Source: Methylophaga sp. OBS4 | Lineage (GTDB): Bacteria > Pseudomonadota > Gammaproteobacteria > Nitrosococcales > Methylophagaceae | Length of the DNA stretch: 64,000 nucleotides | Assembly: GCF_026319305.1 (NCBI RefSeq) | Contig: NZ_JAPDMV010000010.1 | Location: 1 to 64,000 of the forward strand | Reading direction: 5' to 3' | Shown here: positions 26,350-63,952 of the stretch, piece after piece | How the letters are laid out: every line of letters begins with the position of its first letter | Numbering within the stretch: the stretch's first letter is position 1 | Translations under genes and position numbers: made by a program | Notes under the pieces: generated by a model | What the model saw: the letters and a program-made list of their open reading frames with translations, nothing else | The model's database searches: none | Told to the model about the DNA's origin: nothing

Positions 26350-26371
26350 ATTAATTCTCAATGTATCTTCG

Positions 26372-29696: not shown

Positions 29697-30491
29697 TTAG
29701 AAAGAGCGCGTCACATAACCAATAAACTGGCTATCACCACGATTATCGCCATCAACACCCGGCCACCAGTCTTTATCAGCGTTGGTGTCGGTATAGTTCA
29801 CACCCACTGTCCAGCCTTCAGAACCAGCAAGCGAAAAGTCCTTGCTCACGCCAATCAGGTAGTCGGTGTAATCAAAGTCGCTGTAGTTTTCGACATCCAG
29901 GCGACCGATATGTGCTGTCAGATTGAAGTCCATCGGCAGGCCATAATTGAAGTTCAGCTCGTAATACTGAGTGCCTTTACTATCGCCATTAGCGTCAGCG
30001 CCCATCGTATTGCTAGTGACACCGCCCCAGTCGGTCAGGGTACGGCTGTATTTGGCAGTGAACCATTTCCAGGTGGCGGCCACATAAGCTTCGGTGGTGT
30101 CGAAATCTTCATCGCTCCGGCCATTCAGACCCGGCACTTTCTTATTATCAGGGTAATAGAATTGCAGCAAACCGACATCCACGCCAAAATCATCTGTGAA
30201 CTGGTGGTAATAACCGCCATAGAAGTCGACTTCGATGCTGTTACCCACGTTAAGGCCTTCTTCCAGAGTGGTTGCCCAGACGCCCGCATACCAGCCGCTG
30301 GCATGGGCATAGTCAAATCCGCCCTGCAAAGCAGGATCTTCATCACTGTAGTCAATGCCGCGGAATACGTACGAACTGAACAAACCGACGTTTGAACTAA
30401 AGCTGTGCGGTGAGGTTTCTTCGGCATGAATAGCCGTGGTGGCTGTCATAGCGGTACCCGCTATTGCCATTGTTAATAAAAGCTTCTTCAT
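29697..30491 (-). CDS. TorF-family putative porin
   Basis: 264 residues with a signal peptide (MKKLLLTMAIAGTAMTATTA, cleavage after IHA). Mature sequence shows FSSNVGLFSSYVFRGIDYS, the opening motif of the TorF/Gcw_chp outer-membrane family, alternating aromatic beta strands and a C-terminal Phe (VTRSF), as in barrel proteins. The promoter carries the 91-bp module shared with mgdA, so this porin is probably co-regulated with methylamine oxidation and may admit methylated amines. It lies directly downstream of dmmC on the same strand. Confidence 0.85.
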   Translation of the reverse strand: MKKLLLTMAIAGTAMTATTAIHAEETSPHSFSSNVGLFSSYVFRGIDYSDEDPALQGGFDYAHASGWYAGVWATTLEEGLNVGNSIEVDFYGGYYHQFTDDFGVDVGLLQFYYPDNKKVPGLNGRSDEDFDTTEAYVAATWKWFTAKYSRTLTDWGGVTSNTMGADANGDSKGTQYYELNFNYGLPMDFNLTAHIGRLDVENYSDFDYTDYLIGVSKDFSLAGSEGWTVGVNYTDTNADKDWWPGVDGDNRGDSQFIGYVTRSF

Positions 30492-30573
30492 TCTATTTTC
30501 CTTTTAGGTTGGTAAAAGTTGTTGCTAAAAATCGCAATAAATATTGCGTCGTTCAGATTGGTTGAATTACTTG

Positions 30574-30664
30574 GAGTAGACAGCATCAACCACCGTTCAA
30601 TTAAACAATGTTTCACCAAGTGAAACTTTAACTGCATTTACGCATGACTCATTTTCCCTGTCAA
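30574..30664 (-). promoter_or_regulatory. Promoter/operator module shared with mgdA (porin copy)
   Basis: On the minus strand: TTGACA (30659-30664), a 17-bp spacer, then GTAAAT (30636-30641) as a weak -10. Next is a palindrome GTTTCACTTGGTGAAAC (30610-30626, 7-bp arms), which would cover about +3 to +19. The conserved leader continues to 30574. It aligns without gaps to 63862-63952 with 77 of 91 identities. The operator position suggests a repressor. The palindrome is separated from dmmC's stop by about 45 bp. Confidence 0.75.
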
Positions 30665-30669
30665 CACAT

Positions 30670-31710
30670 TCACTCAGGATGAGTGCCCAATTCGAGCTCT
30701 TCGCCATCGTCCAGCGGTGCCAGCCAATCTATCGCCATCTGACGGTAGTTATCCAGTCCTTTGTATTCAGATAAGTCCGGATGCAGGTTTTGCAGCACGC
30801 GATGCAAACGTTTGGCCCAACGTGGATAAGTCGCCAAATCTTTAAGGCTGATGAGGTAACCACGGACGCTGAAGGCAATGGCATTACTGCGCGGCAGGCG
30901 GAATAGTGCCTGAAGCTCCACACGCAAATGCACTTTTTCAGCCACATTTTCCGGTGTGACTGACATATTGTCCGGCCCCCAAAGCGGGTAATTTTCCGGA
31001 GAGGTATCCAGACGCGGGTTAATCGTCATGGTCCAATTCAGGCGACGAACCGGGCTGCCATATTGAAGATGCAGCAAGTATTTCAGGGCACGGTCAAAAA
31101 TGCCGAGTTCATTGGCTTGCGGAACCGGACCATGCCATTCCTTGAACGACATGCCGGCGTCAAATGCCATAGACCAGTCGGCCTGACTGGTGACCATGCC
31201 GGCATCGGCAAATAAATCTTCATCACGCTGGTCCAGCAGAATCCAGTCGCCCTGCACTTGACGGGCGATATATTCAAACGGCTCCATCGGCAGCGTGCCT
31301 TCATCACCAAAGGTGAAGGACTGTCCGATGCCCAGTGGTTTGTTGACCCAGTGCCAGTTATCACCGTCTTTACTCAGCTGAAACTGTTCCGGATAGTCAG
31401 CCGCCAGTGAATCCATTACCAACTCAACCATGTCCCACTGCGCATCCATCATGTGCGGCAACGCAATATAACGCTCGGAATCTTCTTCCAGCGTAATTTG
31501 CCTCTCTGCACATTCGGCGACGTAATGTTCATCTACGTCAATAACATGTTCAAACACCGAACCTGGCTGCGTCGGAGCATGCTGCTCAATGTTGACGCTG
31601 TACATATATTCATCTTCGGCAAACGGGAACGGAAAACGACGAATGGCTTCAGGTGAGTTAGAAAAGGTGTAATCATCACGGAAGCTTTCTTGTTTAAATA
31701 CCATGTTCAT
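30670..31710 (-). CDS. dmmC: Dimethylamine monooxygenase subunit DmmC (DUF3445, heme-dependent N-demethylase family)
   Basis: 346 residues. The N-terminus (FPFPFAEDEYMYSVNIEQ) and segments such as NWTMTINPRLD and LFRLPRSNAIAFSVRGYL are typical of DUF3445, the heme-dependent oxidative N-demethylase family. With DmmA and DmmB it should oxidise dimethylamine to methylamine and formaldehyde using O2. Last gene of dmmDABC, in the order known from Ruegeria pomeroyi. A GAGGAA site precedes the ATG. No signal peptide. Subunit letters are assigned from gene order and may need checking. Confidence 0.85.
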   Translation of the reverse strand: MNMVFKQESFRDDYTFSNSPEAIRRFPFPFAEDEYMYSVNIEQHAPTQPGSVFEHVIDVDEHYVAECAERQITLEEDSERYIALPHMMDAQWDMVELVMDSLAADYPEQFQLSKDGDNWHWVNKPLGIGQSFTFGDEGTLPMEPFEYIARQVQGDWILLDQRDEDLFADAGMVTSQADWSMAFDAGMSFKEWHGPVPQANELGIFDRALKYLLHLQYGSPVRRLNWTMTINPRLDTSPENYPLWGPDNMSVTPENVAEKVHLRVELQALFRLPRSNAIAFSVRGYLISLKDLATYPRWAKRLHRVLQNLHPDLSEYKGLDNYRQMAIDWLAPLDDGEELELGTHPE

Positions 31711-31720
31711 TCGTATTTCC

Positions 31721-32674
31721 TCAGATGTTGAGCACTAAGTGGCTGCATTTAGCACGTGAGACGCAGGGCAGAATTTTGTTTCCTACCGCTTTTTCTGCGT
31801 CTGACAGATAATGATCGTTGTGCATCAGTACACCATCACAATCGAGCACTTCCAGCTCACAACGCCCACAGGCACCGCCACGGCACAGGAACGGGGCATC
31901 AACACCCGCTTCTTCCATCGCTTCCAGCAGGCTCATATCACCCGGTACTTCCACTTCCATCTCGGTTTGCGCCAGTTTGACGCTGAACGCATCGCCCATC
32001 GGCGGGGCTAAGAACTGCTCGCTGTGCACATGGTTTTCCGGCCAACCCAGATTTTTTGCTGTTATCAACAGCGATTTGACCATGGGCTCCGGGCCACACA
32101 CATAGACATGGGTGCCTAAAGGCTGATGGCCGAGCAGATCGTTAAAATCCACAAGCTGGCCTTCTTGTTCGACATAAAAATGCACCCGGTCACCACACAT
32201 CTCTTCCAGTTGTCCTCTGAAAGCCGCATGCTCATTGGAACGATAGGCGTAGTGCATTTCATAATCGCAGCCGAGCCGGTTCAAGTCCGCGATCTGGGAC
32301 ATAAACGGTGTAATACCGATACCACCTGCAACCAGAATATGTCTGCGTCCCAGCTTAGAGATGGCAAACAGATTGACCGGATAGGTGATTTGCAGCCGTG
32401 AACCCGGCTTCACCTTGTCGTGCATGAACACCGAACCACCGCGGGATTGGTCCTGGCGGCGCACTGAAATATGATAACTATCCGTATTCGCAGGCGATCC
32501 CATCAGTGAATAAGGATTCCGATGAATACGACCATTGATATTCATTGCCACCACCACATGACTGCCACCGGAAAACCGCGGCAAGGGTTCGCCGTTTTCC
32601 TGTACCAGCGTGAAGTGCTTCACGAACTCGGTTACTTGTTCAACATCGGTTACTTTTACATTCAAAATACTCAT
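31721..32674 (-). CDS. dmmB: Dimethylamine monooxygenase reductase DmmB (PDR/VanB family)
   Basis: 317 residues. It has the phthalate-dioxygenase-reductase layout: a flavin domain (about 1-105, NPYSLMGSP for FMN), an NAD domain (VAGGIGITPFMSQ, YVCGPEPM) and a C-terminal 2Fe-2S ferredoxin (CRGGACGRCE, with a fourth Cys in LPCVSRA). It supplies electrons from NAD(P)H to the oxygenase subunit. The start overlaps the stop of dmmA by 4 bases. Confidence 0.9.
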   Translation of the reverse strand: MSILNVKVTDVEQVTEFVKHFTLVQENGEPLPRFSGGSHVVVAMNINGRIHRNPYSLMGSPANTDSYHISVRRQDQSRGGSVFMHDKVKPGSRLQITYPVNLFAISKLGRRHILVAGGIGITPFMSQIADLNRLGCDYEMHYAYRSNEHAAFRGQLEEMCGDRVHFYVEQEGQLVDFNDLLGHQPLGTHVYVCGPEPMVKSLLITAKNLGWPENHVHSEQFLAPPMGDAFSVKLAQTEMEVEVPGDMSLLEAMEEAGVDAPFLCRGGACGRCELEVLDCDGVLMHNDHYLSDAEKAVGNKILPCVSRAKCSHLVLNI

Positions 32675-33273
32675 GGGTAGAGCTCCTCACTTGCCGGAAT
32701 CTTGCCGGGTTCTTCCGCATCAATCATCACGCCCATATAGGCGCCGAGACGTCTGGAAAAATGATCCCGAACAAACAGGTGCCGGCCGCACCCGCTACAA
32801 GGATGGATACTGTGATGCACATCCTCGTCAATAGTCTTGCAATGTACGCAGTAAACTGAGCGTGCCAGCGTACCGCAGAGTTCTTTTTCAACATTGACGT
32901 CTTGCACGCCATAGGGTTTAAGTGTCTGCATCACCGACCAGATAAATGCTTCAGTACCGGCGACATAAAATTGTGTGCCCATTAAACAGTCAGGTAGTTG
33001 CTCCTTGAGCGCTGCCAACACCGCCTGTTTAGAATCACAAATCTGCAATCCTTCTGGGACCAGCGTTGAAACAATATCAGCGTACTTTTTCGAAGCCGAT
33101 GCATTATCGGCAAACAACAACTTGATTGGCTCACGGGGATACATTTGCTGAAACAACTTCAGCACGGCAATACCACCCTCCCCCTGTGCTATCACTACAT
33201 GGCCGGTCGCCTGATGACGCCAGACCAATGAGTCATAAAAGGGTTTACTTCTTATCCAATATCCTCGTTCCAT
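32671..33273 (-). CDS. dmmA: Dimethylamine monooxygenase subunit DmmA
   Basis: 200 residues from the ATG at 33273 (MERGYW). The N-terminal half resembles a nucleotide-binding alpha/beta domain (AQGEGGIAVLKLF). The C-terminus carries a zinc-ribbon-like pair of CxxC motifs (CVHCKTIDED and CSGCGRHLFVRDHFSRRLGA), typical of DmmA. Its exact job in the complex is not settled. It overlaps dmmB and follows dmmD by 77 bases. Confidence 0.82.
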   Translation of the reverse strand: MERGYWIRSKPFYDSLVWRHQATGHVVIAQGEGGIAVLKLFQQMYPREPIKLLFADNASASKKYADIVSTLVPEGLQICDSKQAVLAALKEQLPDCLMGTQFYVAGTEAFIWSVMQTLKPYGVQDVNVEKELCGTLARSVYCVHCKTIDEDVHHSIHPCSGCGRHLFVRDHFSRRLGAYMGVMIDAEEPGKIPASEELYP

Positions 33274-33350
33274 ATTTGTTATCTCATCTTGTTCGTACAG
33301 CCAGCACCCTGCCATTGGCAGGGTTGCAAGCAGTACGAGAGTTAATCTTG

Positions 33351-34520
33351 TTACTCTGGATGAGTACGCAGACGCATGGGGTCATAAAACGGTGTTTTCA
33401 CCACATGCGCTTCTACCGGTGTTTCACCGCTAATCACTACCTGAGTGCCCAGTTGTGAAAACTCGGGCTTGACATGCACCATAGCCAGAGATTTCATCAG
33501 ATAACGGCTATAGCAGGCACTGGTAACCACACCGATTTCTCTACCGTCTTTGATGATTCTGGCACCTGCTTCAACCGCTTCACTGCTCTGACATTCCAGT
33601 CCCACCTGTTTGAATCGTTCACGTCCGCGTAACTTGAGCAGCGCTTCCTTACCGATGTAGTTGCCTGGTTTATCCAGATCAACACACCAGCCCAAATTCA
33701 CCTCCCAAGGGGTGGTATCGCCTTCGGGCATGTCATAGGGGTAAAACAATAACGCTGCTTCTACGCGGGTCAAATCCAGAGAGTCCCAAGAAGCTGCCAT
33801 CACACCATAAGGGTGGCCTTTTTCCAGAATGCTGTCCCAAAGATGAATTGCATCATCGGCGTGACAATAGACTTCATAGCCGCGTTCTCCTGAATAGCCG
33901 CCACGGGCGATCTTTACATCACAGCCGAATAGTTTGGTTTCGATATGTTTAAAATAAGGCAGTTTGGCCAGATCAATAGCCATATGGGGCGGGTCCAGCG
34001 CATCAGCAGATCTAAGGACATCAATAGATCTGGGGCCCTGCAATGACAGAATATGGACATCCATATCCTGTTCAATTGTCACATCCATACCTTCAGCCAG
34101 ACGGGCCAAAGTCTGCTGCGTCGCACCGCTGCCATGTGACAGGCGATATTGCTCTTTGCCATCACATATCACCATGATGTCGTCGACCAGCGCCCCTTTT
34201 TCATTTACTTGTGCTGCCAGTCTTGACGTGCCCGGTTCAAGGTTGCTGACATCAATCGCAACAAGCTGATCAAGTACAGTCAACGCAGCCGGACCGGAAA
34301 CGTTGACAATGTTGAGTGCAGAAATATCATAAAGCCCGGCCCTGGTTCTGACTGCAATCACTTCATCATACGGGTTTGTATGGTAACGCCAGGGAATCGG
34401 CATATTGTTCCAGGTTTCGCCGTCCAGCTTGCAACCCAATTCCTGATGTCTGATATTTAAGATTGAATTGCGTATGGTACCTGATTCAGGTGTCAAGGCA
34501 TTTAAGCTTGAATTTCCCAT
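33351..34520 (-). CDS. dmmD: GcvT-like protein of the dimethylamine cluster (DmmD)
   Basis: 389 residues of the aminomethyltransferase (GcvT/YgfZ) fold, with TRAGLYDISALN, YRLSHGSG, LQGPRSIDVL, RGGYSGERGYEVYC and LTRVEAALLFYP. These residues form the folate-binding pocket in relatives, so it probably captures the methyl carbon as methylene-tetrahydrofolate or acts as an accessory demethylase. In Ruegeria an additional dmmD gene is needed for growth although DmmABC suffices for activity. First gene of dmmDABC. Confidence 0.8.
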   Translation of the reverse strand: MGNSSLNALTPESGTIRNSILNIRHQELGCKLDGETWNNMPIPWRYHTNPYDEVIAVRTRAGLYDISALNIVNVSGPAALTVLDQLVAIDVSNLEPGTSRLAAQVNEKGALVDDIMVICDGKEQYRLSHGSGATQQTLARLAEGMDVTIEQDMDVHILSLQGPRSIDVLRSADALDPPHMAIDLAKLPYFKHIETKLFGCDVKIARGGYSGERGYEVYCHADDAIHLWDSILEKGHPYGVMAASWDSLDLTRVEAALLFYPYDMPEGDTTPWEVNLGWCVDLDKPGNYIGKEALLKLRGRERFKQVGLECQSSEAVEAGARIIKDGREIGVVTSACYSRYLMKSLAMVHVKPEFSQLGTQVVISGETPVEAHVVKTPFYDPMRLRTHPE

Positions 34521-43515: not shown

Positions 43516-45219
43516 CTAAGACACCAGGCTGTTGGTGAAATAAACAACAAAGATACCGGCAGCCAATGCAATATATGGCAGAATACCTGCTCGTGTATCG
43601 CCATCTTTTTCGTTACTGCTCAGATACATATCTTCCAGCATGGCTTTCGGGAATTGACCTTTGTCGATGATGTAGTGACGCCATATAAAAACAGGAATCA
43701 CCAGCGCAGCCAGGAACAGACCACTCACCAATGTTCCCACTCCCCAGACATTGGCCCCCAGCCCCATCAACGCCAGATTGACGTAAGCCAGTATGGTGCC
43801 CATCACAATCAGAATAGTAGGCGCCCGATACGGTCGTTCCCAGCTCGGACGATCCATGCGGTGAATCCAGCCTGAGTTCAAATTCAGGAAGTTGAAAATG
43901 ATATAACCCACGTTGGAAGCTGCCAGCAGGAACACGTAATCTGACATGCTCAGCAGTACCATATTCACTATTAGATTGGTCCACATGGCGCTGCTCGGCG
44001 CGCCATGCTCGTTCACATAAGACAGATACTTCGGTAACAAGCCATCAACGGAACCCTGATATAAGGTACGCGAAGAACCGGACATGGTCGTCATGATAGA
44101 TAGCAGCAAAGCCAGTATCAGCATCACCACAAACATATTGGCAATAAAACCGCTACCTCCGAAAATGCCGGCCAGCGCATTCGCCACCCCCATACCGCTG
44201 TAGATTTCCGATGCCAGCATACCGTCATAAACAGCCGGTGCAATCACGGCGCCTGATGAATTCAGAACTTCAGGTGTAACCAGCTCTCCCAGACCCAGGT
44301 GTCCCTGGAATGCCAATGGCACAAGTGTGAATACAGCAACACACAACAGCCCTGAATAGAAAATGGCTTTGAAGGTATCCTTTCTGGGATTTTTAAACTC
44401 ACGTGTGTAACACGCGGCAGTTTCAAATCCATACGTTGACCAGGCCGCAATAAACAAACCGCCGGCCATCAACACCCAGCCGTCCATGCTCCACTGCCCA
44501 TCTACCACATTACCGATAGCGTCATAAGCCAGCGGTGACAATGGAAAGAAATGCGCGGAAGGTACATCATCGGTGATCAGCGGTACTACGCCGACGATCA
44601 GCAACGGCACCAGTGCTGTTACCCCCAGGACCATGGTCGTTTTTGCCGAGCGTAGAATACCGCCGTTCTGAATGGCATAAACCAACAGCATCAACGAAGC
44701 ACCGATAATGAAGGTAGCGTTAATTCTGAGCTGGAGCCCCTGTTTGAGCATGCTCAGATCCATTAACGTTATCTGCCAGGTATTAATCACGGCATCTGCC
44801 GGAAACAAAGCCGTCAGAATATAGCCAGCCGCCAGACCCGAACCTATCGCCAGCACGGGGCCCCAGGCGACCCAGTTACACCATATTGACAAAGGTGCGA
44901 CAAACTTGCTGTATTTAACCCAGGCCACTGCACCATACACGGATGCTCCGCCTGTTTTATGCGGAAACAAACCCGCTATTTCTGCATAGGTAAAAGCCTG
45001 AATAAAGCCAAAGCCAATCGAAATCATCCATACCAACCAGGCCGGCTTACCCACTGTGGCAGCAATCGCCCCCATGGAAAACAGCACCAGAGCCGGTACT
45101 CCACTTGCCACCCAAAACGCCCCCGTCCAGTTAATGCTGCGGTGGAGTGAAGAACTGCCTGCCACTACATCATCGGCGAGGTCGGCTGTAATAGCATCAA
45201 TCGTTGTTTTTTCCTGCAC
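43516..45219 (-). CDS. APC-superfamily amine/amino-acid permease, candidate methylated-amine importer
   Basis: 567 residues from the GTG at 45219, chosen for its AAGGAG site 5 bases upstream; the longer frame begins with no site. About 12-14 membrane helices, with the APC-type early motif SMGAIAATVGKPAWLVW and FTYAEIAGLFPHKTGGASVYG, and RPSWERPYRAPTI in a late cytoplasmic loop. It lies directly upstream of tmd on the same strand. Import of trimethylamine or another methylated amine is the natural guess from context, not shown by the sequence. A 36-residue membrane protein is encoded 340 bases upstream. Confidence 0.82.
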   Translation of the reverse strand: MQEKTTIDAITADLADDVVAGSSSLHRSINWTGAFWVASGVPALVLFSMGAIAATVGKPAWLVWMISIGFGFIQAFTYAEIAGLFPHKTGGASVYGAVAWVKYSKFVAPLSIWCNWVAWGPVLAIGSGLAAGYILTALFPADAVINTWQITLMDLSMLKQGLQLRINATFIIGASLMLLVYAIQNGGILRSAKTTMVLGVTALVPLLIVGVVPLITDDVPSAHFFPLSPLAYDAIGNVVDGQWSMDGWVLMAGGLFIAAWSTYGFETAACYTREFKNPRKDTFKAIFYSGLLCVAVFTLVPLAFQGHLGLGELVTPEVLNSSGAVIAPAVYDGMLASEIYSGMGVANALAGIFGGSGFIANMFVVMLILALLLSIMTTMSGSSRTLYQGSVDGLLPKYLSYVNEHGAPSSAMWTNLIVNMVLLSMSDYVFLLAASNVGYIIFNFLNLNSGWIHRMDRPSWERPYRAPTILIVMGTILAYVNLALMGLGANVWGVGTLVSGLFLAALVIPVFIWRHYIIDKGQFPKAMLEDMYLSSNEKDGDTRAGILPYIALAAGIFVVYFTNSLVS

Positions 45220-45560
45220 TGTTTCTCCTTGAGGGTAAGCAAATCCGAATAACGCAATCCTGTAAAAATTCAACTATTAAGGTTTTACAGGTAATATCCT
45301 TGCCAGCGTATATGTAGGCTTATACACCACAATATGCACCCATTTGTAACTGAATCTGTACTATCCTTGTCACTCGCACACCTTTTCAATTCTCAATACA
45401 GACTACTGCTTAAGGAGTGGCCTGAGAGTAATATGCTGCTTTTGACCTGAACTCAGGTCTTGTGTTTATCTGAAGCTTACCTAGGGGCCTGTTTATCTTT
45501 CAGCTCACAACAGAAGCGGACCAGTGCCCGGTCCGGAATTTTATTCAGCATTTACTTGCA
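45220..45560. promoter_or_regulatory. Upstream region of the APC permease with palindromes
   Basis: 340 bp without a gene. A perfect 16-bp palindrome GACCTGAACTCAGGTC lies at 45444-45459 (7-bp arms), a likely operator. A hairpin CGGACC-AGTGCCC-GGTCCG lies at 45517-45535, just after the stop of the 36-residue gene, and may be its terminator or a processing site, though no T-tract follows on the minus strand. Confidence 0.45.
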
Positions 45561-48986: not shown

Positions 48987-49775
48987 TTACAGGCGGTCAA
49001 TCATTGCATAGGCTGAGTGGTTGTGAATCGACTCGAAATTTTCGCATTCAACTTTAAAACCCGACACGGCCGTATTTTTATCCAGGGTGCCGGCAATATC
49101 TCTGACCAGATCCTCGACAAATTTCGGATTATCGTAGGCGAATTCGGTGACATATTTCTCATCCGGCCGTTTCAACAGACCATAAAGCTGGCTCGAGGCC
49201 TGCTCTTCCACCGCACCGATCAACTGATCCAGAGACAGGCTGTCGTCCATGTTAACTTCAACCGTAACCAGAGAACGCTGGTTATGAGCGCCATACGCGG
49301 AAATCTTCTTTGAACAGGGGCACAGGCTGGTCACCGGAATCTCGGCCTTTACTGTCAGGCTGAAATCGGTGCCCATACCGGCCGCCAGCGTTACGTCATA
49401 ATCCATCATGCTTTTCACCCCGGAGACGGGGGCGGCTTTACTGATGAAAAATGGAAAACGCATTTCGACATGGCCGACTTCGGCTTCCAGCAGCTGTAAC
49501 ATGTCCTGCATAAACACTTTCATGCTGCCGACTGAGAAAACCTGCTGTGGACGCTCAAGCAGTTCAATAAAGCGAGACATATGTGTGCCTTTGACATCAT
49601 GCGGCAGTTGCACATACATACTGAAATCGGCCACAACACGAATGGGGCCTTGATCATCGCTTTCAAAATAAATGGGATAACGTAACGATTTGATACCCAC
49701 CTGGTCTATGGCCAGCTGACGCTTGTCAGGGGTGTTTTGTACATCTTCCAGACCGGTGTTAAGAGGCAAATTCAT
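48987..49775 (-). CDS. folE2: GTP cyclohydrolase FolE2 (type IB)
   Basis: 262 residues from the ATG at 49775 (AAGGAT upstream); the frame extends further with no site. The COG1469 signature is present: MRFPFFISKAAPVSG, SLCPCSKKISAYGAHNQRS (metal-binding Cys) and FVEDLVRDIAGTL. It makes 7,8-dihydroneopterin triphosphate for folate. Type IB enzymes can use metals other than zinc and replace FolE when zinc is scarce. Here it fits folate demand of the DmmD- and MgdC-type proteins. First gene of the folE2-ribBA operon. Confidence 0.92.
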   Translation of the reverse strand: MNLPLNTGLEDVQNTPDKRQLAIDQVGIKSLRYPIYFESDDQGPIRVVADFSMYVQLPHDVKGTHMSRFIELLERPQQVFSVGSMKVFMQDMLQLLEAEVGHVEMRFPFFISKAAPVSGVKSMMDYDVTLAAGMGTDFSLTVKAEIPVTSLCPCSKKISAYGAHNQRSLVTVEVNMDDSLSLDQLIGAVEEQASSQLYGLLKRPDEKYVTEFAYDNPKFVEDLVRDIAGTLDKNTAVSGFKVECENFESIHNHSAYAMIDRL

Positions 49776-49832
49776 AACGTTTATCCTTATCTGTAGACTT
49801 CGTTTAGTCATTGAAATCTGTTGATTATCCTC

Positions 49833-49946: not shown

Positions 49947-50051
49947 ATGAAGAAGCTGAGTCTGAATCATCAAACTAAAGCCTCGATTTGGATTATCCAA
50001 GGCTGCAAGGTCAGTCACAATTCCAAAGAAGGATTACTACCAATGGGTTAG
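49947..50051 (+). CDS. Possible 34-residue small ORF
   Basis: ATG at 49947 with AGAGGA 6 bases before it, ending at TAG 50049-50051. The peptide (MKKLSLNHQTKASIWIIQGC and 14 more residues) has no recognised family and no membrane helix. It is the only plus-strand candidate in a minus-strand region, so it may be chance. Included because of its ribosome site and the hairpin upstream. Confidence 0.2.
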   Translation: MKKLSLNHQTKASIWIIQGCKVSHNSKEGLLPMG

Positions 50052-50146
50052 TAAGGCCTTGTGAACTGAGTTATAAAAAACCCTGCCAAGCAAAGTGCAG
50101 CTGACAATCTTGCATTCGCCACGCTGCTGACAACGCAATGGCCAGA

Positions 50147-54206: not shown

Positions 54207-55538
54207 TCAGAACTGCTGCTGACCCGGAATCCAGCTGGTACCCGCCAGAGGTACTTTCGCCATCGCAGCCGACTCAACAGTCAATGCCACCAGATCTTCA
54301 GGTTCAAGATTACGCAAATCGTTTTTACCGCAGGCTCTGGCCAGGGTTTGTGCTTCCAATGTCAACACACGCAGATAGTTAGCTAAACGACGGCCTCCCT
54401 CAATGGGATCCATTCTTTTCATTAACTCCGGATCCTGAGTTGAAATACCGGCAGGATCTTTGCCATCGTGATAATCATCATAGAAACCGGCAGCTGAACC
54501 GATCTTCTTGAACTCTTCATCATAAATCGGATCGTTATCACCCAAAGCGACCATAGCTGCAGTACCAATGGCTACCGCGTCGGCGCCCAGTGCCATACAT
54601 TTGGCAACATCTGCACCATTGCGAATACCGCCGGACACAATCAGCTGAACCTTACGGTGCATGCCCATTTCCTGCAGAGCCTGAACGGCAAGAGGAATAG
54701 CAGCCAACGTTGGTATGCCCACATGTTCGATGAATACTTCTTGTGTTGCAGCAGTACCACCTTGCATACCATCTACAACAATGACATCAGCACCGGCTTT
54801 CACAGCGAGTTTCACATCGTAATAAGTACGTGTTGCACCCACTTTGATGTAAATCGGTACCTGCCAATCAGTGATCTCACGCAACTCATGAATTTTGATA
54901 GCCAGATCATCCGGTCCGGTCCAGTCAGGGTGACGACAGGCAGAACGCTGATCGACGCCCATCGGCAGTGTGCGCATTTTAGCGACGCGTTCGGTAATTT
55001 TCTGGTCGAGCAACATACCGCCACCACCAGGTTTGGCACCCTGGCCCAGTACCACTTCTATCGCATCGGCTTTACGCAGATCATCCGGGTTCATGCCGTA
55101 ACGTGATGGCAAGATTTGATAAACCAGTTTTGTAGAGTGACCACGTTCTTCCTGAGTCATCCCGCCGTCACCGGTAGTCGTAGAAGTACCCACTGCGGAG
55201 GCACCCCGGCCAAGCGCTTCCTTGGCATGTGCTGAAAGGGCACCAAAACTCATGCCTGCAATCGTCACCGGGATATCAAGTTCAATCGGTTTCTTGGCAA
55301 AGCGGGTACCGAGTTTCACTGAGGTATTGCATTTTTCACGATAGCCTTCCAGCGGATAACGAGACATGCTCGCTCCCAGGAACAGCAAATCGTCAAAATG
55401 TGGCAGCTTGCGCTTGGCACCAAAACCACGAATATCGTAGATGCCTGTGTCCGCTGCACGGCGGATTTCAGACATGGACAGACGGTCGAAAGTCGCTGAT
55501 TCACGAAGTTCGGTAGTTCGTTTGATTCTTTCACTCAT
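54207..55538 (-). CDS. mgsC: N-methylglutamate synthase subunit C (FMN-dependent glutamate-synthase domain)
   Basis: 443 residues of the FMN-binding alpha/beta barrel of glutamate synthase: IAGMSFGALSAHAKEALGRG, STTTGDGGMTQEERGHSTK, EVVLGQGAKPGGGGML, KVGATRTYYDV, VDGMQGGTAATQEV and VSGGIRNGADVAKCMALGAD. In MgsABC it combines methylamine delivered from gamma-glutamylmethylamide with glutamate carbon to make N-methylglutamate. Third subunit gene; GAGGAA precedes the ATG. Confidence 0.92.
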   Translation of the reverse strand: MSERIKRTTELRESATFDRLSMSEIRRAADTGIYDIRGFGAKRKLPHFDDLLFLGASMSRYPLEGYREKCNTSVKLGTRFAKKPIELDIPVTIAGMSFGALSAHAKEALGRGASAVGTSTTTGDGGMTQEERGHSTKLVYQILPSRYGMNPDDLRKADAIEVVLGQGAKPGGGGMLLDQKITERVAKMRTLPMGVDQRSACRHPDWTGPDDLAIKIHELREITDWQVPIYIKVGATRTYYDVKLAVKAGADVIVVDGMQGGTAATQEVFIEHVGIPTLAAIPLAVQALQEMGMHRKVQLIVSGGIRNGADVAKCMALGADAVAIGTAAMVALGDNDPIYDEEFKKIGSAAGFYDDYHDGKDPAGISTQDPELMKRMDPIEGGRRLANYLRVLTLEAQTLARACGKNDLRNLEPEDLVALTVESAAMAKVPLAGTSWIPGQQQF

Positions 55539-55563
55539 TGTATTTTCCTCGCAAAATCAACCA

Positions 55564-56313
55564 TCAATACGCGCCAGCGTTATCGACTTTGAAGTTGTAC
55601 AGTTGACGGGCCGAACCGTAGCGTTTGAAGGCTTTCGGATCTTCGTCCACGCCGGCTTGCTCGAGCAGTTTGGTCAGCTCTTCGATGTGCTCGGCACGCA
55701 TCTCTTTCTCGATGCAATCCGCGCCCAGCGACTTCACTTTACCTTTCACATAGATATGGACTTCGTACAGTGAATCGCCCAGGGCATCCCCGGCATCACC
55801 ACACACCACCAAAGTACCGGCCTGTCCCATAAAGCAGCTCATATGACCGACATTGCCTTTCACAACAATGTCAACCCCTTTCATCGAGATACCACACCGT
55901 GAACCGGCATTACCTTCAACCACCAGGAGACCGCCATGAGCGGTGGCACCGGCAGCGGAGGAAGCATCGCCTTTAACGCGTACGCTGCCTGACATCATGT
56001 TTTCAGCCACACCTTGTCCGGCACTGCCGTGTACCACAATATCGGCTTCTTTATTCATACCGGCACAGTAATAACCGGCGTGGCCTTTGATATCGATTTT
56101 CAGTTTCTGATCGACACCGACTGCCAGATTATGCTGACCTTTTGGATTCAGCACTTCCCACTCCGCTTGAGTGAGTTCGTTTGCCTGATCATGCAGAGCC
56201 TGATTCAGCTCGCGTACAGACTGCACAGCCAGATCTACTACGCCATCCACTTGCTCAATTAGAGGCTGACTCATTTCGCCTACTGACTGTTCTGCTAAGT
56301 TGATCGTTTTCAT
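55564..56313 (-). CDS. mgsB: N-methylglutamate synthase subunit B (GXGXG domain)
   Basis: 249 residues. The C-terminal part is a right-handed beta helix of the glutamate-synthase GXGXG type, with repeats such as NKEADIVVHGSAGQG, TAHGGLLVVEGNAGS, GVDIVVKGNVGH and AGTLVVCGDAGD. Structural domain that connects the amidotransferase and FMN domains in glutamate synthase; here a separate subunit. AGGAG precedes the ATG, 24 bases after mgsA. Confidence 0.9.
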   Translation of the reverse strand: MKTINLAEQSVGEMSQPLIEQVDGVVDLAVQSVRELNQALHDQANELTQAEWEVLNPKGQHNLAVGVDQKLKIDIKGHAGYYCAGMNKEADIVVHGSAGQGVAENMMSGSVRVKGDASSAAGATAHGGLLVVEGNAGSRCGISMKGVDIVVKGNVGHMSCFMGQAGTLVVCGDAGDALGDSLYEVHIYVKGKVKSLGADCIEKEMRAEHIEELTKLLEQAGVDEDPKAFKRYGSARQLYNFKVDNAGAY

Positions 56314-56337
56314 TTTGTTCTCCTAATGCGCCATTGC

Positions 56338-57240
56338 TTAGTTATTGTCGCGTTCCCACACGTAAATAGTTGCAGGTTCGGGTTCCCAGACTTTTGCGTT
56401 CTCAATACCTGGCAAGGTAGTCAAAGCCTGATATTCAGAAGCCATAGCAACGTAATCATCTGTTTCTGCAATTACTGCCGGTTTGCAGGCAATCGGGTCA
56501 CGCACAACCGCAAAGCCGTCTTTGGTACCGATAGTAAAGGTGTAAAAACCGTCCAGTTCTTGCAGCGCATGTTCCAGCGCTTCACGCAGTGAATCACCCT
56601 GTTGCAGACGGTAAGTCAGGTAACCTGCCGCCACTTCAGAATCATTTTCGGTATCGAAGGTAATACCATTGCGTTTCAGTTCCTGGCGTAGACGGTTATG
56701 GTTGGAAAGAGAACCGTTGTGAACCAGGCACAAATCCAGACCGGTAGAGAAAGGATGGCTGCCTGCCATGGTGACAGCAGATTCTGTTGCCATACGGGTA
56801 TGGCCGATAATGTGGCTGCCTTTCATATTGTTGAGTTTGAACATATCAACAATTTTTTCCGGCAGACCGACTTCTTTCAGAATCTCAATTGATTTACCTG
56901 AACTCATAATCAGCACATCGGGATGATTTTGTTCCAGATATTGCTCAACGGCTTCGTCTTCTGCATTCACTTTGAGTACAGCAACTTTGCTGTTTTGAAA
57001 CCATTCGACTGTGGTATTCAGAGCCGTTTCGATTTCTTTAGCCAATTTGGCCCAGTCATAGTTTTCGTCTTCGTGACGCAGGGTCAGTTTGATACCGTCG
57101 TTAACCGCGTCACCATAGACGGCAAACCCGGCACTATCAGGACCGCGGTCGGTCATCGCAATCAGCATTGGTGCAAATAACTCACCCAAGCGATTTTCGT
57201 ATTCATTGTTTTTCAAATAAAGGCCAACAATTCCACACAT
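56338..57240 (-). CDS. mgsA: N-methylglutamate synthase subunit A (class-II amidotransferase)
   Basis: 300 residues. Ntn-type amidotransferase with the nucleophilic Cys right after the start Met (MCGIVGLYL), TDRGPDSAG, GHTRMATESAVTMAGSHPF and LVHNGSLSNH. In glutamate synthase this domain hydrolyses glutamine to ammonia; in MgsABC it works on gamma-glutamylmethylamide to release methylamine. Follows gmaS by 36 bases. Confidence 0.92.
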   Translation of the reverse strand: MCGIVGLYLKNNEYENRLGELFAPMLIAMTDRGPDSAGFAVYGDAVNDGIKLTLRHEDENYDWAKLAKEIETALNTTVEWFQNSKVAVLKVNAEDEAVEQYLEQNHPDVLIMSSGKSIEILKEVGLPEKIVDMFKLNNMKGSHIIGHTRMATESAVTMAGSHPFSTGLDLCLVHNGSLSNHNRLRQELKRNGITFDTENDSEVAAGYLTYRLQQGDSLREALEHALQELDGFYTFTIGTKDGFAVVRDPIACKPAVIAETDDYVAMASEYQALTTLPGIENAKVWEPEPATIYVWERDNN

Positions 57241-57276
57241 AAGATTTCTCCTAAAAAATTCCTACTAGAGGGATAC

Positions 57277-58683
57277 TTAATAAAATTCAGCGTAACGAGA
57301 GATTTCCCAATCGGAGACATGTCTCATGTACTCCACCCATTCCATGTGTTTCAGTTCCAGAAACTCGTTCGCAAGTCCTTCACCCAATGCACCACGAACA
57401 ACACTGTCTTTTTCAAAAGCGGTCAGGGCTTCGTGTAGATTTTGAGGCAGGATGGCAATACCTTTTTCTTCCAGTTCAGCAGGGCTGAGTTCATAGAGAT
57501 TGGTATTGTGTCCCTGGCCCGGATCAAGCTCGCGTTCCACACCGTCCATACCGGCGGCAATAATGGCTGCCGTTGTCAGGTAAGGGTTGCATGAGCCATC
57601 CGGCAGGCGCATTTCAAGACGACCGTAAGGAATACGCACCATGGTTGAACGGTTGTTATCGCCATAAGTCACATAAGCGGGCGCCCAGGTGGCACCTGTC
57701 AGTGAACGGCCGACAACAAGACGTTTGTATGAATTCACAGTCGGTGCAGCCAATGCACACAAGGCCGGGGCATGTTCCAGCAGACCCGCCATAAAGTGAT
57801 AAGCCAGTTTGCTCAGACCGTGTCCCGTCGGATCACTGTCATCGTGGAACAGGCTCTTTTCACCATCACCGATAGAGATATGCAAGTGCATGCCATTACC
57901 AGGTCTGTTGCTGAACGGTTTAGGCATATAAGTACAAATCATGCCCAGTTCATTGGCAATTTCACTGGCGGCCATCTTAAACATGATGAAATCATCAGCA
58001 CTTTTCAGGCAGTCGGCATAGGTGTAGTTGATTTCAAACTGACCATTCGCATCTTCGTGATCAATTTGATAAACATCCAGCCCTACTTCGATAAGGGATT
58101 CAGTCAGTTTCTCCAGAAAAGCACTCTGACGGGTAATACCCTTATAGTCATAACAAGGTTTATGCAGCGTATCGGTATCATCGAACGGGTGCATTTGACC
58201 GAACTCATCTTTTTTCAGCAAAGAGAATTCTGGCTCCAGGCCGGTAAACATGGTCCAGCCTCTTGCGTTCAGCCGCTCAATCTGATTTTTCAATACAACA
58301 CGGGAATCGAAGTTATAAGGCTTGCCATTGACATGACCATCACAGATGATTCTTGCGTAACCCGGTTGCCAGGGAATAACTGTCAAGGTAGATAAATCGC
58401 CCCTGGCCATATAGTCAGGCCCGTTTGGCTTGATGCCCATGCCACAGATTGCGCCACCTGCAAAACCGGCGCCATTACCCAGAATATCCTCCAGATGAGC
58501 AGCAGGTATTGACTTGACTTTGGCAACACCGTGGATATCAACAAACTGTGCCAGAATGTACTTAATCTTGTTGTCTTTGAGGAATTGCTTAGCTTCTTCT
58601 ACTGTGTTCACAGCAGTGTCGGTCGGAACTAAATCTTCAGCAACCGGCTGACTTATTTCATTTGCTTCTGCTACATATTTCAT
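57277..58683 (-). CDS. gmaS: Gamma-glutamylmethylamide synthetase (glutamine-synthetase family)
   Basis: 468 residues, matching the GS-like GmaS enzymes of methylotrophs. Motifs: [53 protein letters not shown], and [23 protein letters not shown]-dependent coupling of methylamine to glutamate gives gamma-glutamylmethylamide. Ordinary glutamine synthetase is less likely because of sequence type and position between mgdD and mgsA. AAGGAAAG precedes the ATG. Confidence 0.94.
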
Positions 58684-58719
58684 ATTTCTTTCCTTCTTGG
58701 TTAAGGTTTTTCAGCAATT

Positions 58720-59388
58720 TCAATTGCTTTTGAAATACCGGTTAATTCCGACAGGTCCGCCACCCAACTCTTTAATTATATTGAGCAGGGTTTTCCACAA
58801 ATAAGGGCCGAAAGTACCGTCGCACCAGAGTCGGTAGACAGTTTGACCATTCAGGCTTTGCCTCAGCAGCGTTGCTGAAACACCGGCTATCATGGTCATT
58901 ACAAGTCGGTTATCGTCGAGCACATCACCATTCAGATCGATTGCACACACTTCGGAAAATAATGGCTGGATCAGTTCACCACTGAGAATGAAAGCTGCAT
59001 CGTTACGACTGACTTTATGTATGCCGCTTTCATTAACGCTGGTCTGATTCAGTTTTGAACATAGCTCTGTACCAGGTTGATCTTCTAGCAAAAACTCAGT
59101 ATTCCCCAGCCTCATCACCAGGGTATTGTCATCCTGAGTTGTCCAACTGTTAGTACCTGTTGGCAGGTTGACATTGGCAGCGGTCAACCACGCTGATGCA
59201 TTAGGGCCTTTTACCCCGAAACGGTTCAGCGCACTGACATCACAAATTGATAAAGTCTGACTGTGAGCATCTTCCACTGTTGTTTCAGCAAAACTCAGGG
59301 CCGTGCTCATACCGTTGATGTCGCCTACAACCGGTTTACGCAGAGACTGAGCAAAGGCAACCGGACTTCTATAAACAGCGTCTTGCAT
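58720..59388 (-). CDS. mgdD: N-methylglutamate dehydrogenase subunit D (sarcosine-oxidase gamma-like)
   Basis: 222 residues from the ATG at 59388 (AGGAGCTTGATC before it). SoxG-type fold with LSICDVSALNRFGVKGPNASAWL, LVMRLGNTEFLLED and LRQSLNGQTVYRLWCDGTF. The small gamma-type subunit has a folate-binding-like fold but no known catalysis; it closes the complex. It lies 3 bases after mgdC. Confidence 0.88.
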   Translation of the reverse strand: MQDAVYRSPVAFAQSLRKPVVGDINGMSTALSFAETTVEDAHSQTLSICDVSALNRFGVKGPNASAWLTAANVNLPTGTNSWTTQDDNTLVMRLGNTEFLLEDQPGTELCSKLNQTSVNESGIHKVSRNDAAFILSGELIQPLFSEVCAIDLNGDVLDDNRLVMTMIAGVSATLLRQSLNGQTVYRLWCDGTFGPYLWKTLLNIIKELGGGPVGINRYFKSN

Positions 59389-59390
59389 GA

Positions 59391-62300
59391 TCAAGCTCCT
59401 TTTTTTGCTAAAAGATGAAAAAACGGTGCCTTCACTACCGTGGCAGACACCATGGCTCCTGAGTCAGCGCGAATCTGAAATTGACTGCCGATGCCACTTT
59501 GTTCAGGGGCAACAAAGGCAAAACCAATCACCCGATTCAAATATTTGCTATACGAAATACTGGTGACACGGCCTTTGATATCGTCGTTTTCGATCACCAG
59601 ATTGCACTCCTTGGGCAGTTCACCGGCAAAGTCGCTATCCAGCACGAAATTAATCAGTTTTTTGTTCAACTGTTTTTTGGCAAGGATTTGCAGACTTCTC
59701 TGACCGACAAAGAAAGGCTTATCCATCGCGACCAGCGATTCAGAGTGGGCTTCAAACGGGTTGGTCAGGCCATCAGTATCATGGCTGATCAGATGGTGCC
59801 CCATTTCCAGCCGTAACAAACGCTGTGCATCAGTACCAAAGGCACGAATACCCGCCTGTTTGCCCGCTGTCATGATGGCTTCCCAGACATGCAAGCCGGC
59901 TTTGTAGGGCACATGGATTTCAAACGCGAGTTCGGCAACAAAGCTGACTCGCATTATCCGTGCGTCGACGCCAGCCACCTGGCCTTCACGGATAGCCCCA
60001 TCACGCATCGCAGATACTGACAAGTCAATATCGGTTAAACCTTCAACGATAGAGCGGGATGCCGGACCGGCAACAGTCATCGCAGCCATGGCACCGGTCA
60101 GGTTCACCAGGGTCACCTGCATGCCCCACAGCTGAATATTGCGTTGCATTTCGCGGTAGACCGAGGCGGCATTAGATGAGTTGGTCGAGACATAGAATTT
60201 GTCTTCAGCCAGACGGGCAGCCAGACCATCGTCGGTCATGACGCCGGATTCATCCAGCAGCATGGCGATACGGCTGTCTCCCACTTTCTGGCCGGCAAAT
60301 TTGCCAGTGTAGAAACGTTCCAGAAAAGCAGCAGCATCGGGGCCGAAAACTTCGATTTTGCCCAGCGTGCTGCCATCGATCATGCCTGCTTTTTCACGAA
60401 CTGCGGTCGCTTCTTCCTGCACGGCCTGGCTAGCTGTTAGCGTTGTTCCTGCCGGCACATAATAAGCTGGCCGCATCCAGACACCGGCATCCATCATCAC
60501 ACCACCATGGTCGACATGCCATTCGTGCATTGCGGTATAACGATGCGGATGAAAGCTACGGCCACCCAGGTGACCAATAGGCGTCGGATGGAAAAACGGT
60601 CTGGCTGTTGTGGTACCAATTTTCTGTACCGGCAACTGACGGATCCGCGCCAGAATGCGAATCGCATTCATATTGGAATGTTTACCCTGGCTCGGCCCCA
60701 TGCCCACGGTAGTGAAACGTTTCATCAATTCGATATTGTCGAAACCTTCTTTTGCCGCATTGATAAAGTCCTTGACCTGAATGTCTTCATCGAAATCGAC
60801 AAAGTTTTTGCCTTTAGGATGATTAACAATCGGGTATGGATGGCTGGGTGATGCGGCCTGTGGAATGTTCACGCTGACAGCATCTGCTTGTTTACCCAGA
60901 TAATTCAGTACTTCTGCCGCTGCGCGCTGACCATCTTGCTGACGTGCTTTCAGATCAAAGACACCATTGACTTTACCCGCCGCGAACACACCTTCAGGCA
61001 GTTGGTCCGGAACAAATTGCTCCAGGCCATCGTCATAACGCATCTGGGTCCCGGCCTGATACAGCAGGGCAGCAGCCGGTGCCCAACCTGAACTCATCGC
61101 GACGCCATCACAGCTCAATCTGACACTGCGGCTGGTATCAGCTTCAGCATCTGCCTCGTTATACGGGCAGACCACTACTTCCTTGATACTCAGCTTGTCT
61201 TTAGTTGCCACAGCCTCGTAAATACAGCTGGCCTTATGTACGGCAATGCCTTTGTCAGTGACTCGCTCAGTCAACTCACGGCTGGCACCATCACGACGCA
61301 TATCAATCACCGCCACCACTTCGGTACCGGCAGAGGCCAGATCCAAAGCCGTGCGATAGCCATGGTCATTAGCTGTGACCACCACCCCTTTATTAAAAGG
61401 TTTGACGGCATAACGGTGAATCAGACGCTGTGCGGCTGAGCCCAGCATCACACCCGGCAAATCGTTGTATCTGAATACAGGGGGTTGCTCAAACACACCA
61501 CTGGCAACAATGACGGTTTTAGCTCGCACCTTGGTAATGCCATCATCTTCAACAATAGGTACCAGATGATCTGCATAATAACCAGCTGCATAAGCATTGG
61601 TGATCAGACGAATATTGGCCTCATTTCTGACCGCATTCAGTAAAGTTGACAAGGTATCGGCGACCGTTTGATCACCGGCGTAGTCATAGGTCAGACTACC
61701 ACCTGCCTGGTGATTTTCATCAACCAGAATGACTTTCAAACCCTGACTTGCGGCCGATAAGGCAGCAGACAATCCCGCAGCGCCGGCGCCTACAATCAGT
61801 ACATCACAATGGGCGTGACGTTTGGGTTTGGTGATCCGCGGGTAATTGAAGTTAACAACCCCCAGACCTGCCGCCTTACGGACTATGTTTTCCCAGAAAG
61901 GAAACAATCTCCGAGGCGTATGGAAAGCTTTGTAGTAAAAACCAACCGGTAAGACCGGCGACAAATAGTCGATGTACTTGTTCTTGTCCTTAAGCACCCC
62001 GCCGTCAGTGTTGACAGCTTCCAATGTCATGCCATTGCTGACAGGCCATACGTCAGCTCTGATATTGGTATCTTCACCATCGGTCATCATCGCATTGACG
62101 TCGTGGTTAGCAAAACTCAATACCCCTCTGGCACGGTGGTATTTAAAACTACGGCCCAGGACTTTAATGCCTGCAGCCCACAGAGCACTGCTGATGGTAT
62201 CGCCTTCATAACCTTCAACAGTCCGACCTTCATAACTGAACGTCAAAGGCTTATCACGATTAATCCATTCGCCTCTTTTCTTTGCAATACGCGCAGTCAT
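59391..62300 (-). CDS. mgdC: N-methylglutamate dehydrogenase subunit C (sarcosine-oxidase alpha-like)
   Basis: 969 residues. N-terminal ferredoxin-like part (EGYEGDTISSALWAAGIKV), FAD/NAD-binding half (HCDVLIVGAGAAGLSAALSA, SSGWAPAAAL) and a C-terminal GcvT-like domain (AGMIDGSTLGKIEVFGPDAA, LRLEMGHHL) where tetrahydrofolate takes the methylene group. Shares the heterotetrameric sarcosine-oxidase layout, but operon context with gmaS and mgsABC shows it serves N-methylglutamate. Overlaps mgdB by ATGA. Confidence 0.92.
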   Translation of the reverse strand: MTARIAKKRGEWINRDKPLTFSYEGRTVEGYEGDTISSALWAAGIKVLGRSFKYHRARGVLSFANHDVNAMMTDGEDTNIRADVWPVSNGMTLEAVNTDGGVLKDKNKYIDYLSPVLPVGFYYKAFHTPRRLFPFWENIVRKAAGLGVVNFNYPRITKPKRHAHCDVLIVGAGAAGLSAALSAASQGLKVILVDENHQAGGSLTYDYAGDQTVADTLSTLLNAVRNEANIRLITNAYAAGYYADHLVPIVEDDGITKVRAKTVIVASGVFEQPPVFRYNDLPGVMLGSAAQRLIHRYAVKPFNKGVVVTANDHGYRTALDLASAGTEVVAVIDMRRDGASRELTERVTDKGIAVHKASCIYEAVATKDKLSIKEVVVCPYNEADAEADTSRSVRLSCDGVAMSSGWAPAAALLYQAGTQMRYDDGLEQFVPDQLPEGVFAAGKVNGVFDLKARQQDGQRAAAEVLNYLGKQADAVSVNIPQAASPSHPYPIVNHPKGKNFVDFDEDIQVKDFINAAKEGFDNIELMKRFTTVGMGPSQGKHSNMNAIRILARIRQLPVQKIGTTTARPFFHPTPIGHLGGRSFHPHRYTAMHEWHVDHGGVMMDAGVWMRPAYYVPAGTTLTASQAVQEEATAVREKAGMIDGSTLGKIEVFGPDAAAFLERFYTGKFAGQKVGDSRIAMLLDESGVMTDDGLAARLAEDKFYVSTNSSNAASVYREMQRNIQLWGMQVTLVNLTGAMAAMTVAGPASRSIVEGLTDIDLSVSAMRDGAIREGQVAGVDARIMRVSFVAELAFEIHVPYKAGLHVWEAIMTAGKQAGIRAFGTDAQRLLRLEMGHHLISHDTDGLTNPFEAHSESLVAMDKPFFVGQRSLQILAKKQLNKKLINFVLDSDFAGELPKECNLVIENDDIKGRVTSISYSKYLNRVIGFAFVAPEQSGIGSQFQIRADSGAMVSATVVKAPFFHLLAKKGA

Positions 62301-62574: not shown

Positions 62575-63816
62575 TTAGTGACCGACCGAGGCTGCGCCTT
62601 TTTCACCAGTCAGCTCATAGTCTTCGAAACGGGATAAACGGTATGAATTGATCAGATCAGGGGCTATATCACGGGCAATGGTTTCTGCCATGGTCTTACC
62701 GCTGATCGGTGTCGCTTTGAAGCCCCATGTGCCCCACCCGGCGTCAAGATAGAACCCTTCAATCGGGGTTTTACCCATGATCGGCGCGAAATCCGGAGTG
62801 ATATCTGCCATGCCGGCCCACTGCCGGACGACTTTGATATTGGAGAGGAACGGGAACATATCAACGATGTGAGACGTCAGACCCTCAACAAAATCGAGCG
62901 ATGAACGGGTTGAATGCACTTCATAAGGATCCAGCGACGAACCCATCACCAATTCCCCACGGGAAGACTGGCTCACATAAACATGCAGGCTGCCTGACAC
63001 CAGAATCGTATCCAGCCACGGTTTCATCGGCTCACTGACGCAAGCTTGCAGCGGGTGAATCACTATCGGCGTTTCTATATCGACCATATCGGTAATGCGT
63101 GGGGTAAAACCGGCTACCGCAGAGAGCACACGATTGGTACTGATATAACCTTTATTGGTGTTAACGCCGACAACTTTGCCGCTCTTAACATCAATACCGG
63201 TCACTTCAGTATTCTGGAAAATTTCCACACCCAGCTGATCAGCACCGCGTGCATAGCCCCAGGCCACACCGTCATGACGGGCTACCGAACCGGGCGCATG
63301 ATATAAAGCGCCCAGGATAGGGGCCTGACCACTGCAGGAAATATCGAGTTGAGGACAAGCTTTGGAAATTTCATCGGGTCCGACCACATAACTCTCGACG
63401 CCAACATGCTTGTTCACTTCGGCACGCCAGCGCATGGTACGCATAGCCGATTCAGTATGTGCCAGCGTGAAATGGCCGCGAGTAGAATAAAACAGATTAA
63501 GGTCAAGTTCTTCTGACAGGCCTTCGTACATCTTGACGCTGGCATCATAGAAGTTGACGCCTTCCGGTGTCAGGTAGTTAGAACGAACAATAGTGGTGTT
63601 ACGACCGGTGTTACCACCGCCGATATAGCCTTTCTCCAGCACCGCCACATTGGTGATGCCAAAATCTTTGGCCAGATAGTAAGCGGCGGCGAGGCCATGG
63701 CCCCCACCCCCGATAATCACGGCATCATAGGTTTTTTTAGGCTGAGTACAGTCTCTAAAAAAACGGGGGGCCGGGTGTTCACGACTAAGAGCATACTTCA
63801 AGAGTCGTAATGGCAT
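62575..63816 (-). CDS. mgdA: N-methylglutamate dehydrogenase subunit A (sarcosine-oxidase beta-like)
   Basis: 413 residues. FAD-binding Rossmann start YDAVIIGGGGHGLAAAYYLA and LEKGYIGGGNTGRNTT. The His in SVARHDGVAWGY aligns with the residue that binds FMN covalently in SoxB. Likely catalytic subunit oxidising N-methylglutamate to glutamate plus formaldehyde or methylene-THF. First gene of mgdABCD-gmaS-mgsABC; GGAGG lies 6 bases before the ATG. The promoter holds the 91-bp module. Confidence 0.92.
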   Translation of the reverse strand: MPLRLLKYALSREHPAPRFFRDCTQPKKTYDAVIIGGGGHGLAAAYYLAKDFGITNVAVLEKGYIGGGNTGRNTTIVRSNYLTPEGVNFYDASVKMYEGLSEELDLNLFYSTRGHFTLAHTESAMRTMRWRAEVNKHVGVESYVVGPDEISKACPQLDISCSGQAPILGALYHAPGSVARHDGVAWGYARGADQLGVEIFQNTEVTGIDVKSGKVVGVNTNKGYISTNRVLSAVAGFTPRITDMVDIETPIVIHPLQACVSEPMKPWLDTILVSGSLHVYVSQSSRGELVMGSSLDPYEVHSTRSSLDFVEGLTSHIVDMFPFLSNIKVVRQWAGMADITPDFAPIMGKTPIEGFYLDAGWGTWGFKATPISGKTMAETIARDIAPDLINSYRLSRFEDYELTGEKGAASVGH

Positions 63817-63861
63817 TATTAACCTCCACTGCTCGGTGAGTTTAGATACCTACTACTTTTC

Positions 63862-63952
63862 GAGTAGACATCATTAACTACCTTATAAGTAAACAATGTT
63901 TCACCTAATGAAACTTTAACTACATTTACGCATGCCTGATTTTTCATGTCAA
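63862..63952 (-). promoter_or_regulatory. Promoter/operator module shared with the porin (mgdA copy)
   Basis: On the minus strand: TTGACA (63947-63952), 17-bp spacer, GTAAAT (63924-63929), then the palindrome GTTTCATTAGGTGAAAC (63898-63914, 6-bp arms) just past the predicted start, and a conserved leader to 63862. Aligns without gaps to 30574-30664 with 77 of 91 identities. It lies 46 bp upstream of the mgdA ATG. Likely the main promoter of the whole N-methylglutamate operon. Confidence 0.78.

Follow-up and report, generated by a model that had tools for sequence, protein, structure and literature searches.

A conserved promoter-operator module of the N-methylglutamate pathway in Methylophaga, with a candidate XRE-cupin regulator and a copy before a porin gene

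The analysed stretch of the Methylophaga sp. OBS4 draft genome (64,000 nucleotides, hereafter the window) carries the genes of the N-methylglutamate pathway and a dimethylamine monooxygenase cluster (table 1). Downstream of mgdA lie the tightly packed mgdC, mgdD, gmaS and mgsABC genes of the pathway, and the run that they form is probably a single transcript. The 274 bp between mgdA and this run hold a small frame resembling mgdB. A second mgdA-like gene with 48% identity is found elsewhere in the genome (locus L048, G000:C18:4871-6040), where it is not accompanied by the module described below. The gene order dmmB-dmmC-porin-PAS protein is kept in eight other genomes of the genus, as far as their contigs reach. 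Adjoining the dmm-porin cluster are genes for a NarL-type response regulator, a NarX-like kinase and a PAS protein (25711-29647), which are kept there in several relatives and possibly constitute a methylated-amine sensor.

Table 1. Features of the mgd and dmm-porin loci (window positions unless stated otherwise)
Feature	Position	Strand	Basis or remark
TorF/Gcw_chp family porin	29697-30491	-	PF09694; TIGR02001 over cut-off
Module copy between dmmC and porin gene	30574-30664	-	Missing at the same junction in 8 relatives
Operator O2 of porin copy, GTTTCAC-TTG-GTGAAAC	30610-30626	-	Two-copy alignment; whole-genome palindrome search
-35 hexamer TTGACA, porin copy	30659-30664	-	Two-copy alignment
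Dimethylamine monooxygenase cluster (GcvT-like, DmmA, reductase, HODM/DmmC)	30670-34520	-	NF041259, PF11927, PF22290; porin directly after
Remaining mgd-gmaS-mgsABC run	54207-62300	-	Gaps of -4 to 36 bp from mgdC onward
mgdA, SoxB-like N-methylglutamate dehydrogenase subunit	62575-63816	-	PF01266; TIGR01373 486 bits, under its cut-off
7-2-7 inverted repeat TACTCGA-AA-AGTAGTA, mgdA leader	63851-63866	-	Fixed offset, 16/17 genomes
Module upstream of mgdA (promoter, operator O2, leader start)	63862-63952	-	77/91 identity with 30574-30664; kept at mgdA in 17/17 genomes
Extra half-site GTTTAC after O2	63889-63894	-	Fixed spacing after both O1 and O2, conserved
Operator O2 of mgdA, GTTTCAT-TAG-GTGAAAC	63898-63914	-	Centre near +12
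TGn-extended -10 region TGC GTAAAT, mgdA promoter	63924-63932	-	Hexamer weak, TG invariant, no consensus -10
-35 hexamer TTGACA, mgdA promoter	63947-63952	-	Invariant in 19/19 aligned copies
Operator O1 of mgdA, TTCATAAAATGAA	63972-63984	-	Centre near -61; 72 bp from O2 centre
XRE-cupin gene, divergent from mgdA	Contig C6, 64040-64699		Begins 40 bp past window end; 220 aa, HTH_3 + cupin
Extra module places	This porin; folE2-ribBA in G023 (M. thiooxydans); NarL-type response regulator in G003 (M. lonarensis)		Sequence model

Upstream of mgdA and of the porin gene, both on the minus strand, 63952 to 63862 and 30664 to 30574 align without gaps and are identical at 77 of 91 positions, as the original prediction for this DNA had stated. 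The other best ungapped matches to either copy in the 64-kb window reach 41-44 of 91, and for 60 random 91-mers the best match averages 43.7 and never exceeds 54. The similarity begins at TTGACA and ends sharply at the 91-bp limit. Both predicted palindromes are present, and a search of the 2.55-Mb draft genome allowing zero or one mismatch found the palindrome in just these two places (reversed-pattern control, 0). A sequence-model search of this genome up to E = 1 likewise returned the two modules and a half-match at O1 and nothing more, and we rejected a wider regulon in this genome at that threshold; the draft is 83.6% complete, so that further module copies could be missed.

The exact TTGACA in both copies is separated by 17 bp from GTAAAT, again as predicted. 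Because GTAAAT agrees with the consensus -10 at only 3/6 positions, a consensus scanner calls a sigma-70 promoter in neither copy; together with its extended TGn, however, TTGACA-N17-GTAAAT is nearly invariant in 19 copies, which supports the promoter register of the original prediction. The conserved blocks in the aligned mgdA upstream regions are TTGACA, TGn-GTAAAT, the palindromic operator O2, GTTTAC and a further operator, O1, before the -35 hexamer. O2 had been recognized from the start, whereas O1 had been missed. O2 spans about +4 to +20, a position that would suit repression. O1 is present in 17/17 mgdA promoters at a centre-to-centre distance from O2 of 70-72 bp (72 in 11 genomes, 70 in five and 71 in one), and it is still 72 bp in the two genomes whose promoter spacer is 18 bp long. 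GTTT follows O1 and O2 at equal distance. O1 sits between two divergent promoters and may have a role in autoregulation too.

The leader had also been called conserved, and it is, but its conserved parts are better taken as DNA sites, namely the GTTTAC half-site and, at mgdA only, the 7-2-7 repeat. The repeat has the consensus TACYNCT-TA-RGTAGTA in 16/17 genomes, and its spacing and consensus agree in these with the NarL-type pattern TACYNMT-N2-AKNRGTA, so that it looks like a NarL/FixJ-type site; the response regulator of the dmm cluster is missing from some of the genomes that keep the repeat. We also considered an RNA stem and rejected it, as positions 4 and 5 pair in just 10 and 6 of 16 genomes, respectively, with no compensation. 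The window holds five one-mismatch NarL-type sites versus 0.8 expected. Two of them, at 45404-45419 and 50038-50053, precede a gene for an amino-acid permease (43516-45273) and folE2 (48987-49811).

Among 24 genomes of the genus, mgdA occurs in 17, all of which have the module upstream of it (E 5e-18 to 5.2e-14), and none of the seven genomes without mgdA has the module. The sequence model found only three other places with E <1e-10 in the 24 genomes, all of them within methylated-amine gene clusters; the matches next in rank represent half-matches to O1, hits on the opposite strand or noise. A search of Methylophaga genomes had been proposed as a check, with random scatter as the contrary outcome: the module is instead linked to mgdA in every genome that has this gene and otherwise to amine genes only. 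The order's 39 remaining genomes gave no match at E ≤0.001. When 84,980 species were scanned for the exact pattern, 17 Methylophaga loci and one locus on a Chloroflexi contig were returned, the latter taken as a chance match given the size of the scan.

The gene beginning just beyond the window, divergent from mgdA, encodes a protein with an N-terminal Cro/CI-type HTH_3 domain (PF01381, E 1.1e-14, residues 33-87) and a C-terminal cupin domain (PF07883, E 1.9e-15, residues 142-205). It is present in this arrangement in 17/17 mgdA genomes and missing in the other 7, a co-occurrence with the module that is partly mere linkage since the two adjoin. AlphaFold models it with medium confidence (pLDDT 68) and places a helix at residues 55-62; the best PDB match of the protein is 1y9q, an HTH_3 family regulator. 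The nearest named NCBIfam equivalog is PuuR (NF007408), which we rejected as an assignment because the score of 44.5 bits against a cut-off of 211 means that the protein is not PuuR. In Pseudomonas, XRE-cupin proteins act as local inhibitors by way of palindromic binding sites (PMC7901475), and one such operator, TTAAG-N5-CTTAA of PsdR, is proven (PMC10965056). The module palindrome, TTTCA-N5-TGAAA, has the same 5-N5-5 geometry. Judged from sequence, the XRE-cupin protein is likely the regulator acting at the module and, as mgdA and the porin gene have an operator in common, they probably have this regulator in common as well. The original prediction of a common regulator, probably a repressor, is supported to this degree. 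It had sought the gene either elsewhere or among the HTH proteins of the window, and of these the former is the likely one.

Two genomes of a sister genus in the same family have a 62-66% identical regulator, again divergent from mgdA. They carry GTTTCAYNNNRTGAAGC at the same promoter position, the sequence downstream of a TTGACA being GTTTCATCACATGAAGC or GTTTCACCAGATGAAGC. A more distant paralogue (44-47% identity) is divergent from gmaS. Its intergenic region contains TTTCCTATAAGGAAA or TTTCCTATCAGGAAA, a TTTCC-TATMA-GGAAA palindrome of the same geometry, and its recognition helix starts with SQGM, not SRGM. These two gmaS cases are suggestive of a half-site change that accompanies the helix change. 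In the intergenic region before gmaS at two sister-genus loci (L116 and L117), the TTTCCTATMAGGAAA palindrome of the gmaS-linked regulator closely precedes a sigma-54-like TGGCAC-N5-TTGC. A second XRE-cupin regulator occurs in M. lonarensis, 81% identical and divergent from glnK-amtB (G003, L064 1411-2139), with no strong module between the two.

Here, dmmC and the porin gene lie 178 bp apart. The distance is shorter in G012, the nearest relative, at 62 bp, and in G004, at 45 bp, and the module is absent from this gap in all eight relatives with the same junction. The porin copy matches the mgdA promoter of its own genome at 77/91 positions and all other mgdA promoters at ≤70/91. Since its closest relative is thus the genome's own mgdA promoter and the gaps of the relatives are free of the module, the copy was most likely derived from that promoter and inserted in this lineage. 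It lacks O1 and ends inside the 7-2-7 leader repeat, the right half of which is lost. TTGACA, the extended -10, O2 and GTTTA are intact, with drift at spacer positions. A terminator-like hairpin, CGCAATATTTATTGCG-ATTTTT, at 30533-30548 (minus strand) separates this promoter copy from the start codon of the porin gene. Of the mgdA-porin regulon first envisaged, the shared module therefore stands, but an ancient two-gene regulon does not; an ancestral mgd promoter and a lineage-specific insert take its place. The proposed link of the porin with methylamine use is supported; the porin closes the dimethylamine monooxygenase cluster and the module is amine-linked elsewhere.

Origin from the mgdA promoter of the same genome was considered for all three extra copies and holds for the porin alone. 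The response-regulator copy of M. lonarensis scores 48 against its own mgdA promoter and 47 against the best other, and the folE2 copy of M. thiooxydans is closest to the mgdA promoter of another species. Two of the three carry O2 only. In M. lonarensis the module fills the gap between the kinase gene and its response-regulator gene, and no comparable gap is found in the window or in M. thiooxydans. We tentatively suggest, as a serious possibility, that the mgd promoter-operator is a copyable cassette placed before the porin, folE2-ribBA and response-regulator genes in separate lineages, such that the XRE-cupin regulon would grow by promoter insertion and not by point mutation of existing promoters.

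Against this background of conservation, distribution, adjacency and insertion, we consider it probable that the module is the promoter-operator of the operon mgdABCD-gmaS-mgsABC, that it is repressed by the divergently encoded XRE-cupin protein and released by a metabolite, and that it was copied before the porin gene in this lineage. A dimer of the protein would bind at O2, shortly past the start site, and also at O1 near -61, and so repress initiation, possibly through bridging of the two operators. Methylamine, gamma-glutamylmethylamide or N-methylglutamate is predicted to occupy the cupin domain and release the repressor. With the promoter copy, bearing O2 and lacking O1, inserted between dmmC and the TorF-family porin gene, the porin, formerly read with the dimethylamine operon only or from another promoter, would now be switched on alongside methylamine use.

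The position of O1 is open to another reading, in which the XRE-cupin protein is mainly an activator at mgdA acting from O1, O2 is modulating, and the porin copy is weak, constitutive or differently controlled. About -61 is a classical (class-I) activator position, O1 is kept in all mgdA promoters, the -10 hexamer is poor, and in Ruegeria the master regulator of this pathway, TmaR, activates its targets, yet belongs to the AraC family (PMC13390433). Characterized XRE-cupin proteins are repressors, however, O2 overlaps the initial transcribed region, and it is O2 that stands alone in two extra copies; we regard activation at mgdA as conceivable but unlikely. A similarly low probability attaches to the porin copy being a passive duplication with no regulatory role. 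The copy is species-specific and lacks both O1 and a full leader repeat, and the hairpin that follows it (30548-30533) is a further caveat to porin control, but its promoter and operator elements have stayed intact despite the drift of the spacer, and copies elsewhere also lie before amine-cluster genes only.

Two other readings concern what the palindrome itself is. Binding by another factor, such as the NarL-type response regulator adjoining the porin (25711-26418), might be suggested by the location of its gene in the dmm cluster and by the module copy upstream of its M. lonarensis counterpart; TTTCA-N5-TGAAA is not a NarL-type site, though, and a close orthologue (at least 71% identity) is missing from the complete module-bearing genomes G005 and G022 and present in the module-less G008. 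We rejected this candidate, the distribution of which does not match that of the module, as very improbable. About as improbable is the reading that the palindrome acts as a 5'-terminal hairpin in the RNA, affecting mRNA stability or attenuation, in place of an operator. The palindrome does lie in the transcribed leader and could form a 7-bp stem in most copies, but it recurs as O1 upstream of the promoter, outside the transcript and with an equally spaced half-site, and in some copies (G001 and the folE2 copy) an inner C..A would be unpaired in RNA. Repression by the XRE-cupin protein from O1 and O2 remains the reading that we prefer.

In the sea, methylated amines are an important component of the dissolved organic nitrogen. 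The analysis provides a named, testable candidate regulator and its operator for the N-methylglutamate pathway and ties a TorF-family porin to methylated amines, while the promoter insertion offers a compact natural case in which the states before and after can be compared in living relatives. Our search of the open-access literature turned up neither an XRE-cupin regulator described for mgd genes nor an account of how the N-methylglutamate pathway is controlled in Methylophaga. The sole regulator study of this pathway found there concerns Ruegeria pomeroyi, and the words Methylophaga, XRE and cupin do not occur in it (PMC13390433). The regulator, the operator and the promoter copying are new examples of phenomena that are already known.

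The closest counterparts of the proposed system are PsdR, PauR and ErfA of Pseudomonas, which likewise combine HTH_3 and cupin domains, are encoded beside a catabolic target and have a 5-N5-5 palindrome and a small regulon (PMC7901475, PMC10965056). Here, by contrast, the half-site is TTTCA and not TTAAG, two operators surround one promoter, the genes are those of the N-methylglutamate pathway and binding is predicted. PuuR of Escherichia coli shares the domain plan, and the gamma-glutamylputrescine pathway that it serves is analogous in using a gamma-glutamylated amine. In R. pomeroyi the dmm, gmaS-mgs and mgd promoters are also under coordinated control, exerted however by an AraC-family activator, TmaR, and a GntR-family repressor, TmoR, and not by an XRE-cupin protein, and promoter copying is not described in the accessible part of the study (PMC13390433). 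The gain or replacement of promoter regions independently of the downstream gene is established as horizontal regulatory transfer or regulatory switching (PMC9944727); the present case differs in that the promoter appears to have been copied within one genome and placed before a gene that belongs to a related pathway.
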